Origin: Kangiella shandongensis
GTDB taxonomy: Bacteria > Pseudomonadota > Gammaproteobacteria > Enterobacterales > Kangiellaceae
Direction of reading: 5' to 3'
Assembly (NCBI RefSeq): GCF_020005365.1
Contig: NZ_JACNML010000003.1
Span: forward strand, 62,001-126,000
DNA length: 64,000 nucleotides
A program made the position numbers and the translations under genes. Below the pieces are notes generated by a model. The model had not been told where the DNA came from, did not search any database, and worked only from the letters and a program-made list of their open reading frames with translations. Position 1 is the stretch's first letter; each line of letters begins with the position of its first letter. Positions 17,210 through 25,409 of the stretch are shown here, piece after piece.

Positions 17210-18853
17210 TTACTGAGCAGCTTCCGCTTTACTCACAAGATCTGCAATATGGTTCATTGCATGGAAAATATCACTTTGCTCATGAGTACCACGAAGCAGT
17301 TGCGCTCCAGGTCCTACAGCGTAGATGCCGACGTCTTCACCGGAATGTGTCTCAGAACCTAATGGCACTAAGGCTTCCTGATGATAGCCAGACGTTTCAG
17401 TTTCAACAGCACCGATATCATGGCGGCCTACAGCTGCTGCATCGCCATAACGCTGGTCACCACCGGCACCTTGACCATAGTCGGCATAACCCAGGCCATT
17501 AGCATAACCAACCGTGGTATAAGGCATATCGTCCGCAGCCATCACGGCTTCAGATTCTGCATGACCAGCATCATCGTTGCCTTTCACTACGCCAAGAATT
17601 GGGTTGCCGCGAGTTGGATAACCTGCCAAAGTGAATACGTGACTGTGGTCAGCAGTTACAACGATCAGGGTCTCGCTCAGGTCAACCTTATCAACCGCCG
17701 CCTGAATCGCTTCCGAAAACTCGATTGCATCTTCCAGCGCACGATAAGCATTACCCGCATGGTGACCATGATCAATACGACCTGACTCAACCGTTAAGAA
17801 ATACCCCTTATCGTTTTTACTGAGGATATCAATCGACTTTTCCGTCATTTCAGTCAACGATGGTTCGCCCGCCGTATCGTTCGCACGATCTGCTTCATAC
17901 TCCATATGCGAAGAGTTAAATAAACCCAAAACCTTCGATGTCGTATCAGCACTCAAAGTGTCAAAGCCAGCCTGATCATACACATAAGAGCCCATACTGT
18001 ATTTGGCTTGCCATGAATCGATAAGATTAACCCCATCCGTGCGCTTACCGCTTTTTCCTTCTTCATCCGTTAAAGTGTTGGGAATAAAGTGACGACGACC
18101 ACCACCCATCACAACATCAATACCATCACCGTAAGCAAAATCGATTAATTGAGTCGCAATATCTTTACAACCATTCGCTTTGGCTTCATCCGTTAACCCA
18201 TCATCACTCTCCCAGTTACGTTCAGGAGACTTAGCGTAAGTTGCGGCTGGCGTAGCATGCGTAATGCGGGCGGTCGATACAACCCCCGTCGACATCCCAG
18301 ACATCTCAGCCAATTCCACAGCAGTCATTAACTCCTTACCCTGCGAAGAAGCACAATCCGCTCGCAATACATCCTCAGCAACCCCAATCACGCCCGCTTT
18401 GGTTTTAACACCGCTCATCATGGCCGTCATGGTACCTGCCGAATCAGGTGTTTGCTGATTAGTGTTATAAGTTTTGGCAAAACCCGCAACCGGGAAAGTT
18501 TCAAAACTCAGCTGATATTCTTCACCAGTATCACCCGCTTTTTGCCCCGCCAAAATACGCGCAGCCGTTACCGTTGAAACGCCCATGCCATCGCCAACAA
18601 ACAAGATAACGTTTTTAGCGGAACCTTTGGTTAACACTTCCTCTGTGTTCATGGCAGTAGCAACTCGTTGCTCACCTTTGGTAAACCAGTCATTGGTTTT
18701 AGTCCAGTCGACACTTGAAACAGGTGGTTCAGGATCGGGTTGTGGGTCATCGTCATCATCAAAACAGGCCGTCAGTAAGCTACTCGCCACCAACACGCTC
18801 AACAATTTATGAGCATGCCTTTTGGATTGCTGCTTTATTTGAAAAATAGTCAT
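17210..18853 (-). CDS. Alkaline phosphatase, predicted lipoprotein form
   Basis: 547-aa PhoA-family alkaline phosphatase (hydrolysis of phosphomonoesters at the cell envelope). The N-terminus has a signal peptide ending in lipobox LLTAC, then a run of Asp/Pro typical of a lipoprotein linker. Core motifs are VGDGMGVSTVTAARI (metal Asp), TPDSAGTMTAMMSG (phosphoryl-acceptor Ser), VESGRIDHGHHAGN, VVTADHSHVF, and EALVPLGSETHSGEDV, all of which look intact. It is a close paralogue of the upstream gene (38 bp gap), so it is almost certainly cotranscribed from the Pho-box promoter. The difference in anchoring suggests surface or outer-membrane retention of this copy. Confidence 0.92.
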   Translation of the reverse strand: MTIFQIKQQSKRHAHKLLSVLVASSLLTACFDDDDDPQPDPEPPVSSVDWTKTNDWFTKGEQRVATAMNTEEVLTKGSAKNVILFVGDGMGVSTVTAARILAGQKAGDTGEEYQLSFETFPVAGFAKTYNTNQQTPDSAGTMTAMMSGVKTKAGVIGVAEDVLRADCASSQGKELMTAVELAEMSGMSTGVVSTARITHATPAATYAKSPERNWESDDGLTDEAKANGCKDIATQLIDFAYGDGIDVVMGGGRRHFIPNTLTDEEGKSGKRTDGVNLIDSWQAKYSMGSYVYDQAGFDTLSADTTSKVLGLFNSSHMEYEADRANDTAGEPSLTEMTEKSIDILSKNDKGYFLTVESGRIDHGHHAGNAYRALEDAIEFSEAIQAAVDKVDLSETLIVVTADHSHVFTLAGYPTRGNPILGVVKGNDDAGHAESEAVMAADDMPYTTVGYANGLGYADYGQGAGGDQRYGDAAAVGRHDIGAVETETSGYHQEALVPLGSETHSGEDVGIYAVGPGAQLLRGTHEQSDIFHAMNHIADLVSKAEAAQ

Positions 18854-18891
18854 GTTGTTTTCCTCAATTTAAATTCTGTGCTGTTAATCAG

Positions 18892-20466
18892 TTACTGGTA
18901 AGTGTCGCCGCCAAGCTCAGCTGCCTGGTTAATGACGTGGAAGATAACGTTCTGCTCGATAACACCTTGGAGTAACTGAGCCCCAGGGCCAACAGCATGG
19001 ACCGTAATATCTTCACCAGCATGAGTTTCAGAACTTAGTGGAACGAGTGCTTCCTGATGGAAACCTGACTGAGTCGTATCGATAGCGGTTAAATCAACAC
19101 GTCCCCCCATATGAGAATCATCGCCATAGCGTTGATCGCCGCCATTGCCAGTACCGTAATCAGCGAAGCCTAAGCCATTGGTATAACTGACCGTTGTGTA
19201 CGGCATGCCGTCTGAGGCTACCGCCGGTTCGGCTAAAGGCTGGCCATTAGCGTCAGTTGATTTAACTAAGCCAAGGATAGGATTACCACGTTGCGGATAC
19301 CCAGCAATCGTGAACACATGACTGTGATCGGCTGTTACGATAATCAGAGTTTCTTCCGGGTTGGTATTATCCATTGCATATTGAACAGCGTTGGCGAATT
19401 CAATCGTGTCATCCAGAGCCCGGTAGGCGTTACCCGCGTGGTGCGCGTGATCGATTCGGCCTGACTCAACCATCAGTACATAACCGTTATCATTTTTCTT
19501 TAGAACATCGATAGCGCCCTGGGTCATTTCAGTTAATGTTGGTTCACCACCAATATCATTCAAACGGTCAGCGTTATATTCCATGTGCGACGAATTAAAA
19601 AGACCTAGCAATTTGTCGGTGTTAGCAAGGTCCAGGCCGGAAAAACTACTTTGATCTTCAACATAAAATGCAGCCTGGCCGCTGTATCGCTCTAACCACT
19701 CATTAGTCAAATCACGACCATCAGTGCGCTTACCGGTCTTACCTTCTGAGTCTGTCATTGTTTCTGGAATAAAGTGACGACGACCACCACCCAAAACAAC
19801 ATCAATACCATCGCCCACTTCCAGTTCAACGAGCTGGGTAGCAATATCTTTACAGCCTGCCTCTTTCGCTTCATCTGGCATACCATCGTCGCTTTCCCAG
19901 TTACGTTCAGAGACCTTGGCGTAAGTGGCGGCAGGAGTAGCATGAGTAACGCGAGCTGTTGAAACAACCCCTGTCGAGAGGCCTTGATCTTCTGCTAACT
20001 CAAGAGCCGTTTTCAGCTCATAACCGTTAGCCATATCACAGTTGGCGCGATCGCTATCGGGTGCGATATTGATGACACCAGCTTTCGTTTTCACCCCTGT
20101 CATCATGGCAGTCATGGTACCTGCTGAATCAGGTGTTTGCTGGTTGGTGTTATAGGTTTTAACCTGAGCACTATACGGCATCTGTTCAAACGACAGGAAA
20201 TTCTCTTCGCCCGAATTGCCCACGCGCTGACCGGCCAGGATACGAGCAGCCGTAACTGTCGAAACTCCCATGCCATCACCGACAAACACGATGACGTTTT
20301 TTGCGTTGGTAAGATGAGTTTGATTAAGTTGTTTATCAATCGCAGCTTGACCGTCAATAAACCACTGACTATTCGATTGAACGTCAGGAAGAATCGCAGA
20401 ATGAGCAACTGAAGTGACACCTGCTGCCACCGCTGCTGCCATTATCGATTGAGTTAGGCGACGCAT
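18892..20466 (-). CDS. Alkaline phosphatase, periplasmic or secreted form
   Basis: 524-aa PhoA-family phosphatase with an ordinary signal peptide (MRRLTQSIMAAAVAAGVTSVAHSA). It has the same catalytic set as its neighbour: VGDGMGVSTVTAARI, TPDSAGTMTAMMTG, VESGRIDHAHHAGN, VTADHSHVF and ALVPLSSETHAGED. It is larger than E. coli PhoA (471 aa), like the enzymes of many marine bacteria. The first gene of the operon, it lies 70 bp downstream of a five-half-site Pho box array, so expression under phosphate starvation via PhoB is expected. No pho regulator gene is in this window. Confidence 0.93.
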   Translation of the reverse strand: MRRLTQSIMAAAVAAGVTSVAHSAILPDVQSNSQWFIDGQAAIDKQLNQTHLTNAKNVIVFVGDGMGVSTVTAARILAGQRVGNSGEENFLSFEQMPYSAQVKTYNTNQQTPDSAGTMTAMMTGVKTKAGVINIAPDSDRANCDMANGYELKTALELAEDQGLSTGVVSTARVTHATPAATYAKVSERNWESDDGMPDEAKEAGCKDIATQLVELEVGDGIDVVLGGGRRHFIPETMTDSEGKTGKRTDGRDLTNEWLERYSGQAAFYVEDQSSFSGLDLANTDKLLGLFNSSHMEYNADRLNDIGGEPTLTEMTQGAIDVLKKNDNGYVLMVESGRIDHAHHAGNAYRALDDTIEFANAVQYAMDNTNPEETLIIVTADHSHVFTIAGYPQRGNPILGLVKSTDANGQPLAEPAVASDGMPYTTVSYTNGLGFADYGTGNGGDQRYGDDSHMGGRVDLTAIDTTQSGFHQEALVPLSSETHAGEDITVHAVGPGAQLLQGVIEQNVIFHVINQAAELGGDTYQ

Positions 20467-21647: not shown

Positions 21648-22070
21648 GTGAGTAAAATGACAGTTGGCTGGAAAGAAGAAGCTAAGCTAACAGAGCTCAA
21701 GATTGATGCCATAAAAGTTAAGGTCGATACCGGTGCAAAAACTTCCAGCCTGCACGCCTTTGATATTGAGTCCTTCGATAAAGAAGGCAGTACCTATGTA
21801 ACCTTCAAGACATGCCCCGATAAACGTCATCCCAAACACACGATCACCTGTGAAGCAAAAGTCATTGATTACCGAAAAATCACCAGCTCCAACGGACAAA
21901 CTCAATTACGTTATGTCATACGCAGCCCAATAACCATAGGCAACAGCACCTGGAACATAGACATCACGTTAGCCAACCGCCACAAGATGCGTTACAAAAT
22001 GCTTCTAGGCCGAGAAGCCATGAAAAACATCATCGTATCGCCCCAGAAGACCTACCTCCAGTCCGACTAA
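21648..22070 (+). CDS. rimB: RimB-type ATP-dependent zinc protease family protein
   Basis: 140 aa with GTG start at 21648. It has a retropepsin-like fold signature with the DTGAKTSSLHA motif at about residues 27-37 and LGREAM near the end (a second family landmark). In Pseudomonas a protein of this family (RimB) trims the glutamate tail added by RimK to ribosomal protein S6. Direct adjacency to rimK here supports the same job. The 'ATP-dependent zinc protease' label is a family name; the motif looks like an aspartic protease and no HExxH is present. Confidence 0.82.
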   Translation: MSKMTVGWKEEAKLTELKIDAIKVKVDTGAKTSSLHAFDIESFDKEGSTYVTFKTCPDKRHPKHTITCEAKVIDYRKITSSNGQTQLRYVIRSPITIGNSTWNIDITLANRHKMRYKMLLGREAMKNIIVSPQKTYLQSD

Positions 22071-22083
22071 GATCAAAACAGGC

Positions 22084-22112
22084 TTGCCATAACCGACACT
22101 TTCAGCTATCTT
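22084..22112 (+). promoter_or_regulatory. Sigma-70 promoter of the tRNA-Ser repeat locus
   Basis: TTGCCA (22084-22089) and TATCTT (22107-22112) are separated by exactly 17 bp and followed by the GC-rich stretch ACGCGGCC, the discriminator type seen at stable RNA promoters under stringent control. Transcription would start near 22119, about 13 nt before the first 167-bp repeat. I see no equally good promoter inside the repeats or directly before the tRNA. Confidence 0.65.
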
Positions 22113-22131
22113 ACGCGGCCTGAGAGCTTAC

Positions 22132-22298
22132 GGTGAAGTGGCCGAGTGGCTGACAAACCAAAGGTTTGAACGCTGGGGCTATGCACCAGCGGCCCGTCAG
22201 GGCGAGAAAGCGTCAGCTTTCGAGTAATGCGCACGCAATAGTGCGCCGTGGTGAGTTTAGTTTCGACACCACAATAAAACTTGAGACTAAAGAAATAC
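22132..22298 (+). repeat. 167-bp tandem repeat unit 1, begins with tRNA-Ser 5' end
   Basis: Its first 22 nt are identical to the first 22 nt of the tRNA-Ser gene at 22633 (acceptor 5' strand GGTGAAG plus the first part of the D arm). The rest is a string of six small perfect hairpins. It has no tRNA 3' half and no credible ORF. Confidence 0.93.
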
Positions 22299-22465
22299 GG
22301 TGAAGTGGCCGAGTGGCTGACAAACCAAAGGTTTGAACGCTGGGGCTATGCACCAGCGGCCCGTCAGGGCGAGAAAGCGTCAGCTTTCGAGTAATGCGCA
22401 CGCAATAGTGCGCCGTGGTGAGTTTAGTTTCGACACCACAATAAAACTTGAGACTAAAGAAATAC
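22299..22465 (+). repeat. 167-bp tandem repeat unit 2
   Basis: As far as I can read, identical to units 1 and 3 over the full 167 bp, including the tRNA-Ser 5' segment at its start. Confidence 0.93.
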
Positions 22466-22632
22466 GGTGAAGTGGCCGAGTGGCTGACAAACCAAAGGTT
22501 TGAACGCTGGGGCTATGCACCAGCGGCCCGTCAGGGCGAGAAAGCGTCAGCTTTCGAGTAATGCGCACGCAATAGTGCGCCGTGGTGAGTTTAGTTTCGA
22601 CACCACAATAAAACTTGAGACTAAAGAAATAC
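22466..22632 (+). repeat. 167-bp tandem repeat unit 3, abuts the real tRNA-Ser
   Basis: Identical to the two preceding units. It ends exactly where the intact tRNA-Ser begins, so the tRNA occupies the position of a fourth unit start. Confidence 0.93.
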
Positions 22633-22723
22633 GGTGAAGTGGCCGAGTGGCTGAAGGCGCACGCCTGGAAAGTGTGTATACGTTAACAGCGTATCGAGGG
22701 TTCGAATCCCTCCTTCACCGCCA
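22633..22723 (+). tRNA. serX: tRNA-Ser (anticodon GGA)
   Basis: 91-nt class II tRNA with encoded CCA. The acceptor stem is GGTGAAG (22633-22639) with CTTCACC (22713-22719), discriminator G, then CCA. The D arm is GCCGAGTGGCTGAAGGC, the anticodon arm is GCACGCCTGGAAAGTGTG with GGA at 22667-22669, there is a long variable arm (TATACG ... CGTATC), and the T arm is GAGGGTTCGAATCCCTC. It closely resembles E. coli tRNA-Ser(GGA) and would read UCC and UCU codons. It is flanked on both sides by repeats built from its own ends. The gene symbol is only by analogy with serW/serX. Confidence 0.97.
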
Positions 22724-22730
22724 TACAATA

Positions 22731-22757
22731 AATACCCGCCTAGTGCGGGTATTTTTG
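22731..22757 (+). terminator. Intrinsic terminator just after tRNA-Ser
   Basis: Hairpin with arms ATACCCGC/GCGGGTAT followed by TTTTTG, eight bases after the CCA end. It would release the tRNA precursor. Confidence 0.85.
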
Positions 22758-22886
22758 TATCTGCGTTAACGGGATGAGAACCTTGGTTCGACAAAATCGT
22801 CTGGAACGATTTTGAACAGCGAAGCTGCCCGAAGGGTAAAATACGAGGATGTATTTTATTAATCCCTCCTTCACCGCCAAATTAAG

Positions 22887-22911
22887 AAGCCTGCCTTGTG
22901 CAGGCTTTTTT
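22887..22911 (+). terminator. Intrinsic terminator in downstream repeat 1
   Basis: AGCCTGC/GCAGGCT stem followed by TTTTTTATTT, eight bases after the repeated tRNA 3' end CCA. Confidence 0.82.
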
Positions 22912-23065
22912 ATTTGCTGAGAGAGTTGATGAGAAGCCTCAAGGGTTCGAGCCGAGCAGCTTTGCTGCAAGACAACATCGGAGCTTTTCTTAAAAAGCGA
23001 CGATGGCCCGAAGGGTAAAATACGAGGATGTATTTTATTAATCCCTCCTTCACCGCCAAATTAAG

Positions 23066-23090
23066 AAGCCTGCCTTGTGCAGGCTTTTTT
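23066..23090 (+). terminator. Intrinsic terminator in downstream repeat 2
   Basis: Same hairpin and T run as at 22887. On the opposite strand it may also stop transcripts from egtD. Confidence 0.82.
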
Positions 23091-23130
23091 ATTTGCTGAA
23101 GGCGTTGATGAGAAGCCTCAAGGGGCAAAC

Positions 23131-24066
23131 CTAAACCGCCCTCAAATAATTCACGCTAAACAGCTGGTTATCATCCAACCAGCTATGCTCCAGATAAAAA
23201 CCAGCTGATTCGGCCATCTCTGCAATACCGTCTAAGGTGTATTTGTAGGAATGCTCGGTATGGATCAGTTCGCCTTCTGCAAAAGTGACCTTATGCCCCA
23301 AAATATTGTAATCCTGTTGAATCAGACTTCTCAGGTACATTTCGATACGCTGCTGCTTCTCATTGTATAGAGCATAGTGCTCAAACTTTGAGACGTCCAT
23401 CTGTGCCTCAAGAATTTGGTTAATATGATATAAGGTATTGAGGTTAAATTCGGCGGTAATACCTTTCTTGTCATTATAAGCTGCATGTAAAACTTCATTT
23501 TCCTTATGCAAATCAACGCCAAGCAACATCCCGCCCTGCTTTCCAACCAATTCCCGCATTTGCTGCAAAAACTGACGAGCATCGCCCGGTTCAAAATTGC
23601 CAATGGTCGACCCCGGGTAAAACACATACTTCCTATAATTCTGGTACTTGTCTGGAATAATGATCGGCTGTGAAAAATCACTGGCGATAGGTGACACATC
23701 TAACCAGGGATAAGTATTAGACAACCTGCTTGCCGACTGAGCTAGAAACTCAGCAGAAACATCCTGCGGCACATAGACGCTCGGATGTAGCTCATTTAAA
23801 AGATACTCAATTTTTTTACAGCTGCCTGCTCCCGGTTCAATAATTAAGGCTTCGCTGTCAATATGACGTGCTATATCCTTGGCATAGGTAAGTAAAATAG
23901 ATCGCTCGGTACGCGTCGGATAATACTCAACAAGCTCCGTGATTTGCTCAAATAGTTTCGAGCCCCGATGATTATAAAAGTACTTAGGGTTGATAAATTT
24001 TTGCTGCGATAAAAGTCCTTCCATGATCGCCTGCTGTTCTTCTTCGAGTAACAGTTCAGTGGTCAC
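23131..24066 (-). CDS. egtD: EgtD, L-histidine N-alpha-methyltransferase
   Basis: 311 aa, the usual EgtD length. The SAM-binding motif is LIIEPGAGSCKKIEYLL (about residues 75-91), preceded by QKFINPKYFYNHRGSKLFEQITELVEYYPTRTE-type sequence that is diagnostic of the EgtD/DUF2260 family, and VFYPGSTIGNF follows. EgtD trimethylates histidine to hercynine, the first step of ergothioneine synthesis. GTG start at 24066 with AAGGAG 6 nt upstream. It follows egtB by 9 bp in the same operon, and its 3' end stops six bases before the tRNA-Ser repeat array. Confidence 0.92.
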   Translation of the reverse strand: MTTELLLEEEQQAIMEGLLSQQKFINPKYFYNHRGSKLFEQITELVEYYPTRTERSILLTYAKDIARHIDSEALIIEPGAGSCKKIEYLLNELHPSVYVPQDVSAEFLAQSASRLSNTYPWLDVSPIASDFSQPIIIPDKYQNYRKYVFYPGSTIGNFEPGDARQFLQQMRELVGKQGGMLLGVDLHKENEVLHAAYNDKKGITAEFNLNTLYHINQILEAQMDVSKFEHYALYNEKQQRIEMYLRSLIQQDYNILGHKVTFAEGELIHTEHSYKYTLDGIAEMAESAGFYLEHSWLDDNQLFSVNYLRAV

Positions 24067-24075
24067 AATAGCTCC

Positions 24076-25374
24076 TTATAGATCTCTCGCTAAACGTATT
24101 CCTGAAAACTGCCACCTGGCTTCAGGATAGAAAAAATTACGATAAGTGCTTCTGATATGGTCTTTTGAGGTAGCACATGAACCTCCCTTGAGCACAAACT
24201 GATTCGCCATAAACTTCCCGTTATACTCACCCACAGCACCGGCCAACGGCTTATAGCCTGGGTATGGGCTATAACTGCTTGACGTCCATTGCCACAGCTC
24301 ACCATATAATTGGAGCAGTTTATCATCAGCCTCGGTAGCTTGAACTGGCTTCAAATAATACGCATCGACAAAACGGCCTTTCACCGGCTGATTCCTAGCG
24401 GCTACCTCCCACTCCTGCTCCGTAGGTAGTCGCGCCCCTTTCCAACTGGCAAACGCATCCGCTTCATAATAACTGACATGAGCAAGTGGGTCATCGTCAT
24501 TAACGGGCTTAACACCTGCCAGGGTGTAGTGATACCAGAGTCCACCATCTTTAAACCAGTACAAAGGTGCATGCCACTGTTTTTGTTGCCTTACATCCCA
24601 GCCGTCACTAAGCCAGAACTCCGAACACTCATAACCGCCATGCTCAATAAATTCCATGTATTCAGCATTAGTCACCAGACGGTTGCCTAGCTCAAAACCA
24701 TTCAGGTAGTGTTGATGTTGTGGAGATTCATTATCAAAACCAAACTCGGAGTTCACATCCGCTTCCACGTCTTTGCCAATAACAGCGAGTCCTGGCTGAA
24801 ACCTAAGCCAGTCATGCTCAACCGGTTTCCTGTAAAGGCTGACGTTATCGTCATTGGTCTTACGATAATGCGGCATCAGTGGGTTTTGATATAAGTTATA
24901 TTTTAGATCGGTCAGCAATAATTCCTGATGCTGTTGTTCATGATTGATGCCTAGCACTACCAGCGACAGAGCCTCATCATATTGTTCCGAAGTTAAACTT
25001 TTAAGTAAGTTTACTATTTTGCTTGTAATGAACTGGCGATATTCAAAGACTTCGCTAACTGTGGGACGAGACAATAAATGCCGCTGCGGTCGTGGAAACT
25101 GTTGACCAACAGCGTTGTAATAAGAATTGAAAAGATACTCGTACTGTGGATTATAAGGCTTAAACCCTCGTTCATAACGCTTTAAAATAAAGGTTTCAAA
25201 AAACCAGGAGGTGTGAGCTAAATGCCATTTAACCGGACTGGTTTCTGCCATTGCCTGTAATCCAAAATCATCTACTTCTAATGGCTCACAAAGCGACTCG
25301 GTAAAAGCTCTTACTGTTTCAAACTGTGTTTGAACCGATTCAAGATGCGATGCTGTTGTCGTTTGATCCAGCAT
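24076..25374 (-). CDS. egtB: EgtB, hercynine oxygenase (sulfoxide synthase)
   Basis: 432 aa from ATG 25374 (GAGGA ribosome binding site). The N-terminal DinB-like domain holds the iron ligands: WHLAH at residues 50-54 and HEQQHQE around residue 140. The C-terminal FGE-sulfatase domain starts near residue 230 and has the typical ARLPTEQEWEVAAR, LYGELWQWTSSSYSPYPGY and FVLKGGSCATSKDHIRSTYRNFFYP segments. EgtB joins hercynine to a thiol donor (gamma-glutamylcysteine or cysteine) with O2. No egtA, egtC or egtE gene is nearby, so the donor and the final lyase are unknown. It is not fused to a methyltransferase as in OvoA. Confidence 0.9.
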   Translation of the reverse strand: MLDQTTTASHLESVQTQFETVRAFTESLCEPLEVDDFGLQAMAETSPVKWHLAHTSWFFETFILKRYERGFKPYNPQYEYLFNSYYNAVGQQFPRPQRHLLSRPTVSEVFEYRQFITSKIVNLLKSLTSEQYDEALSLVVLGINHEQQHQELLLTDLKYNLYQNPLMPHYRKTNDDNVSLYRKPVEHDWLRFQPGLAVIGKDVEADVNSEFGFDNESPQHQHYLNGFELGNRLVTNAEYMEFIEHGGYECSEFWLSDGWDVRQQKQWHAPLYWFKDGGLWYHYTLAGVKPVNDDDPLAHVSYYEADAFASWKGARLPTEQEWEVAARNQPVKGRFVDAYYLKPVQATEADDKLLQLYGELWQWTSSSYSPYPGYKPLAGAVGEYNGKFMANQFVLKGGSCATSKDHIRSTYRNFFYPEARWQFSGIRLARDL

Positions 25375-25409
25375 AAAATCCTCGAATATCAATACCCTAT
25401 TACTCTATC

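Follow-up and report, generated by a model that had tools for sequence, protein, structure and literature searches.

Three tandem units of 167 bp precede the tRNA-Ser(GGA) gene of Kangiella shandongensis, and each of them is probably a partial copy of the leader and 5' part of that gene, with a structured module of the rtT kind set into its D-loop; this judgement applies jointly to the anatomy of the units and to the model, set out below, in which they serve as a precursor leader of the tRNA. The array is real and its anatomy and kinship are explained; its function is a proposal and unproven. The window, i.e. the whole stretch of DNA that was analysed, comprises 64,000 nucleotides, and the following elements were located in it around tRNA-Ser(GGA).

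22084..22112, + strand: predicted sigma-70-type promoter (TTGCCA-17-TATCTT) of the tRNA-Ser gene, upstream of every repeat
22132..22298, + strand: head unit 1, with tRNA nucleotides 1-22, the module at 22154-22228, tRNA nucleotides 25-32 at 22229-22236, then a hairpin and a linker
22299..22465, + strand: head unit 2, identical to unit 1; module at 22321-22395
22466..22632, + strand: head unit 3, identical; module at 22488-22562; RF02902 score of 31 bits, below the gathering score of 39.8
22633..22723, + strand: intact tRNA-Ser(GGA)
22730..22754, + strand: predicted terminator-like hairpin 3' of the tRNA
22786..22866, + strand: module of tail (rtT-type) unit 1, a T-loop insertion; GGA in the P1 and P4 loops; 56.2 bits with covariance model R1, E = 2.7e-15
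22861..22879, + strand: last 19 nt of the tRNA, copy 1
22884..22910, + strand: predicted terminator-like hairpin after tail unit 1
22905..23058, + strand: tail unit 2, RF00391-like (34.7 bits, E = 2.9e-4, below the gathering score of 45)
23040..23058, + strand: last 19 nt of the tRNA, copy 2, which ends tail unit 2
23063..23089, + strand: predicted terminator-like hairpin after tail unit 2

The initial annotation described three identical 167-bp repeats followed, at the next 167-bp step (22633), by the start of tRNA-Ser(GGA), and this description was borne out: the three head units are 100% identical, their start-to-start step is exactly 167 and the identity extends into the tRNA as far as 22654. 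All three units open, as was also stated, with tRNA nucleotides 1-22; they do not simply depart from the tRNA afterwards, since nucleotides 25-32 (GCGCACGC) return after an insert of 75 nt. This insert is a four-hairpin module placed in the D-loop of the partial tRNA 5' copy, and the linker end of the unit resembles, in a comparison by eye, the leaders of tRNA genes without units. We call them head-class units and regard them as a variant of the rtT kind with the module in the D-loop. A head unit is predicted to fold with an energy of -62.8 kcal/mol (z = -3.89). The genome search that had been suggested confirmed that the array is local, with no other full-length match to the unit found in the 2.8-Mb assembly of 26 contigs, and a search of plasmid and phage collections with 22133-22632 returned zero matches at E 0.01.

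The annotation overlooked two tail units of the rtT type, each with its own terminator-like hairpin behind it, that lie downstream of the same tRNA in 22774-23124. Both end in the tRNA 3' end (19 nt), which recurs in each of the downstream repeats 22827-22945 and 23006-23124 (97% identical, 179 bp apart). A part of tail unit 1 (22774-22884) has a fold z-score of -2.09, and tail unit 2 gave no separate R1 match at E 0.01. The tail arrangement is like that of rtT/RttR at tyrT-tyrV of E. coli (RF00391), where the module interrupts a T-arm copy between GGTTCGA and AATCC, the unit ends in the tRNA 3' end and the tandem step is 178 bp (MG1655), close to the 179 bp of the window tail repeat. The head units differ from rtT in lying upstream, in copying the tRNA 5' end (nucleotides 1-22 and 25-32) and in carrying the module in the D-loop, and even tail unit 2 misses the RF00391 gathering score. 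The comparison with E. coli rtT made at the outset was therefore the right lead, but the 5'/3' mirror contrast drawn from it does not hold: the same module occupies the D-loop of a 5' copy in one case and the T-loop of a 3' copy in the other.

The kinship of the module was established with covariance models. The head-unit insert matches the full model of AaHKsRNA22 (RF02902), which it resembles in the order of hairpins and in the CAAA..TTTGAACG, CGGCCC and GAG linkers, although its 31 bits fall below the gathering score; RF00391 left the head units unmatched at E 1 and at E 10. When 369 gammaproteobacterial genomes were scanned with RF02902, 17 matched at E 0.01 and a single one (G291) exceeded the cut-off, and a tRNA or tmRNA gene was present in 17 of the 29 RF02902 loci examined, with a 5S-like sequence in one (L083). 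In G291, the five copies fetched out of ten RF02902 matches carry no tRNA ends by eye, and one of them lies near a tRNA cluster on the opposite strand. These five copies (L067, L084, L092, L094 and L096) begin with GTGCGGT, a sequence similar to the DNA uptake signal of Pasteurellaceae. A new model, R1, was built from 12 RF02902-matched loci, with neither E. coli nor window sequences in the seed; its structure was set by hand, and the initial MAFFT alignment of 22 modules had given a poor RNAalifold consensus of 12 pairs. R1 recovers all three window head units (E = 1.3e-5 each) and, in a searched stretch of 1.8 kb, four of the four rtT units of E. coli MG1655 (E = 3e-8 to 2.5e-6). Counting the window genome, 18 of 20 Kangiella genomes have an R1 match at E 0.01, as do 175 of the 369 gammaproteobacterial genomes at E 1e-4. 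In the proposed covariance searches both Rfam families stayed below their gathering scores (31 bits for RF02902 and 34.7 for RF00391), and R1 linked the units to rtT. By the R1 matches, the window head units and E. coli rtT share the same core module. In an Rfam scan of 20 class loci at E 0.01 nothing over a module attained its gathering score (one module scored 34.7 bits with rsmX, below the gathering score of 56), and the rtT-kind family is far wider than the Rfam entries capture at their cut-offs.

Placement of the module was surveyed in 59 genomes among the matches listed, taking the best copy of each and leaving out the window genome, a sample biased towards RNA genes, since a tRNA or tmRNA gene lies close to most of the R1 seeds and one top hit per genome was taken. 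Of these copies, 46 are near tRNA or tmRNA genes or bear tRNA ends, 38 have a same-strand tRNA or tmRNA within 600 bp, and 13 have neither a tRNA flank nor a same-strand RNA gene within 600 bp. Tail-class copies, in which the module is followed directly by 12 nt or more of a tRNA 3' end, number 33; the flank measures 19 nt in 23 of them, and in eight the fetched stretch holds no RNA gene. In a control that used the smaller set of best-matching RNAs, such flanks turned up in 3 of 656 windows placed at random in the same loci. Head-class copies, in which a tRNA 5' part precedes the module and an intact tRNA follows, account for 5 of the 59, one locus being also of the tail class; together with further head units at L074 and L093 they show the class in families other than that of Kangiella. 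The bases just before the module are GA in 59 of 59 copies, YGA in 55 and TTCGA in 42. The head-class copies break off after TTCGA in the T-loop (four cases, one extending 1 base more) or CTCGA in the anticodon loop (one case), the window head units and L074 break in the D-loop after GCTGA, and at L083 and L101 the module lies after GTGA in an apparent partial copy of the 5S rRNA 3' region (5S judged by eye). Our tentative and rather doubtful generalization is a class-wide gammaproteobacterial element whose target is a GA, in most cases YGA, within a hairpin loop (T, D, anticodon or 5S) of a stable RNA gene that has been duplicated, and which spares the functional gene on one side; classical rtT would be one branch of it, and many branches would double as tRNA-coupled, possibly CsrA-binding RNAs.

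The same target-like contexts and break points would suit a functionless repeat, a small mobile or mutational DNA element that enters hairpin loops of stable RNA genes or their copies and is multiplied by slippage and crossing-over, an explanation that we take seriously while considering it somewhat improbable. Its presence and copy number are patchy in Kangiella, and dispersed copies, partly in adjacent inverted pairs, are numerous in some genomes (37 module matches in G025 and 26 in G027). Dispersed, adjacent and inverted copies are also a likeness to BIME/REP elements, and a link between rtT-like elements and BIMEs has been reported (PMC2965389). The repeat reading is opposed by the lack of any transposase found: the Y1 (RAYT) transposase, PF01797, occurs in 6 of 20 Kangiella genomes and was rejected as the mobilizing agent, as the 10 fetched loci around Y1 transposase genes contain 0 modules, which is also the difference from BIME/REP, and a Y1_Tnp search of the window genome found nothing at E 1e-5. 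It is opposed as well by six dispersed Kangiella copies (L109, L110, L114 and L122-L124) that begin after CC or TC, unlike the usual GA. An empty-site test at L122 yielded no clean borders because its module pair sits inside a larger repeat of about 400 bp. No tRNA is present in the stretches fetched around the dispersed modules L109, L110 and L122-L124, and in the window's own genome two tandem modules lie 3' of tRNA-Asp (G000:C26:43491-43786; L035, L102, L119).

Covariation over many families also speaks against a functionless repeat. Among 107 distinct modules, in an alignment fitted to R1 and hence favourable to the pairing figures, 93.7% of cells are paired, as against 73.0% in shuffles and no more than 47.4% after the 3' partners had been shifted by 1-3 columns; every one of the 22 pairs has changed on both sides. 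The stems are kept in head units too: over seven Kangiella species 171 of 178 stem cells are paired and 6 of 26 pairs are compensated, so that the units are not degenerate tRNA fragments devoid of conservation, the case named in the initial annotation as a refutation; conservation has its limits, however, with 10 of 20 Kangiella genomes lacking a unit and three carrying degenerate or partial ones. The character of the pairs favours the functionless repeat, G-T being no commoner than A-C in P1 and P4 combined (13 versus 20), unlike the usual outcome of RNA-level selection, and this figure may reflect upkeep of palindromes at the DNA level. The corresponding counts are 33 versus 6 in P3 (30 of the 33 in its closing pair) and, for 88 tRNAs encoded in the fetched loci, 29 versus 2 in their acceptor and T stems. 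The innermost pair of P4 contributes 40 of the 75 unpaired P4 cells. A linker hairpin before the tRNA is predicted in 9 of 9 Kangiella linkers but is not claimed here because its z-scores are only -0.45 to -3.17.

At the tRNA-Ser(GGA) locus itself, head units or their remnants occur in 10 of 20 Kangiella genomes and are absent from the other 10, which makes the unit dispensable. The suggested count of copies per strain gave from one to at least three: three in the window, at least three in G025, at least two in G033 (unit matches at two contig ends) and one each in G017, G020, G032 and G034, with degenerate or partial units in G019, G024 and G026. Upstream of the tRNA, the -10 stretch TATCTTAC is present at 19 of 20 loci, the twentieth (G033) being cut by a contig end; it stands 17-64 nt from the tRNA in the 10 unit-free genomes and 160-547 nt from it in 9 others. 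The leader of G021, an empty site, differs from the window leader before unit 1 at 2 of 17 bases. The second tRNA-derived segment exists in two versions, GCGCACGC and GAGCACGC, which match the two versions of the tRNA, and few events are indicated because there are just these two. At the distinguishing base the unit agrees with its own tRNA in 10 of 10 unit-bearing genomes; therefore unit and tRNA change together. Units diverge between species and arrays stay uniform (G025, where copies are 168/168 and 166/168 identical to the last one, G033 and the window), which fits recombination. The repeats are tRNA-derived and locally amplified, as was first read, but their perfect identity is no evidence for selection on the RNA. 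These data also bear on whether the array is an assembly artefact or the att-site relic of an integrated island, which we consider highly improbable. Fragments of tRNA genes commonly flank integrated islands, in keeping with a relic, but the 167-bp units are too short for an integrase gene, and same-site head units exist in other genomes, including the single-contig G017 and G020 and, in degenerate form, G026. The three copies in G025, the single ones elsewhere and the contig-end matches in G033 speak against an artefact of a single assembly.

Expression signals are consistent with a leader. Four promoter-like sites were found in 21950-23200 (0.9 in shuffles) and six terminator-like sites on both strands (1.9 in shuffles), none of the latter on the plus strand within 22113-22729. 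With a promoter-like site ahead of the whole array and nothing terminator-like from there to the tRNA, the head units should form a pre-tRNA leader. RNA polymerase would transcribe the three units and the tRNA as a single precursor, RNase P would cleave at 22633, the sole place with a complete acceptor stem, and the cleavage would free a structured leader of about 510 nt, i.e. three modules per tRNA made. Unequal crossing-over would alter the copy number, and gene conversion would hold the copies identical and matched to the tRNA. By analogy with what is reported for E. coli rtT, the module is likely to act as an RNA whose release keeps pace with tRNA synthesis. We favour this leader model as a whole, in which rtT-kind D-loop units are co-transcribed with tRNA-Ser and released, with reasonable confidence; against it count the unit-free half of Kangiella, the two missed Rfam gathering scores, the G-T figure of P1 and P4 and the 13 modules standing apart from tRNA ends and same-strand RNA genes. 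The units might instead be folding decoys, whose additional acceptor strands, 5' ones upstream and 3' ones downstream, compete for pairing within the pre-tRNA and tune the maturation of tRNA-Ser. The exact acceptor strands are indeed kept in the window (GGTGAAG upstream, CTTCACC-GCCA downstream), but in the predicted fold of the head unit the linker of the same unit pairs with part of the acceptor strand and the D-arm forms a separate hairpin, and the 5' segments are altered in the head units of G019, G025, G026 and G033; we regard a decoy as very unlikely.

The hairpin loops of the module raise a further alternative, titration of CsrA/RsmA, in which the P1 and P4 GGA loops bind a CsrA dimer and transcription of the tRNA releases a CsrA sponge. 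GGA occurs in the P1 loop of 92 and the P4 loop of 93 of the 107 modules, as against 17 for P2 and 12 for P3 (Fisher p < 1e-25, a value overstated by the relatedness of the sequences), and ANGGA, the core motif of CsrA, in the P4 loop of 60. Together with the rsmX score below gathering and both GGA loops in window tail unit 1, these GGA loops would make CsrA binding by the tail class attractive. The three window head units contain no GGA motif, however, and so lack the GGA-bearing hairpin loops of the CsrB/RsmY kind; E. coli rtT modules have no GGA in the P1 and P4 loops either (by eye), and csrA was unmatched in 18 of the 175 module-bearing genomes, some of them incomplete assemblies. For these reasons the CsrA reading is not adopted for the head array, and overall it seems unlikely. 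Across the 369 genomes, module and csrA co-occur in 157, the module alone is found in 18, csrA alone in 155 and neither in 39 (odds 2.2, p = 0.0096, uncorrected for kinship and completeness); an exclusive dependence of the module on csrA was rejected on these counts. Two csrA matches of the window's genome (G000:C26:77955-78110 and 79180-79335) lie a short distance from each other near tRNA-Ser(GCT).

Among the closest described RNAs are also Arrc20 and Arrc21 of Actinobacillus pleuropneumoniae, reported as RtT-family sRNAs upstream of tRNA-Asn and tRNA-Lys genes, for which the portion of the report consulted describes no tRNA 5' copies, D-loop placement or arrays (PMC4986893). That paper also refers to an involvement of E. 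coli rtT RNA in the stringent response (PMC4986893). Full-text literature, mostly outside subscription journals, yielded no account of tRNA 5' copies that carry the module in the D-loop.

Elsewhere in the window, two adjacent alkaline phosphatase paralogues (PF00245) occupy 17210-20466, and at 23131-25392 a histidine-specific methyltransferase (PF10017) adjoins an FGE-sulfatase/DinB_2 protein, neighbours that we take to be an ergothioneine-type pair.

To our knowledge, no role has been settled for rtT since it was discovered around 1980. A covarying rtT core in 175 of 369 sampled genomes, placed both upstream and downstream and in the loops of several RNAs, makes rtT, once an E. coli curiosity, a family that can be tested, and it supplies a rule that any mechanism has to explain: a loop, a GA and a partial copy that spares the gene.
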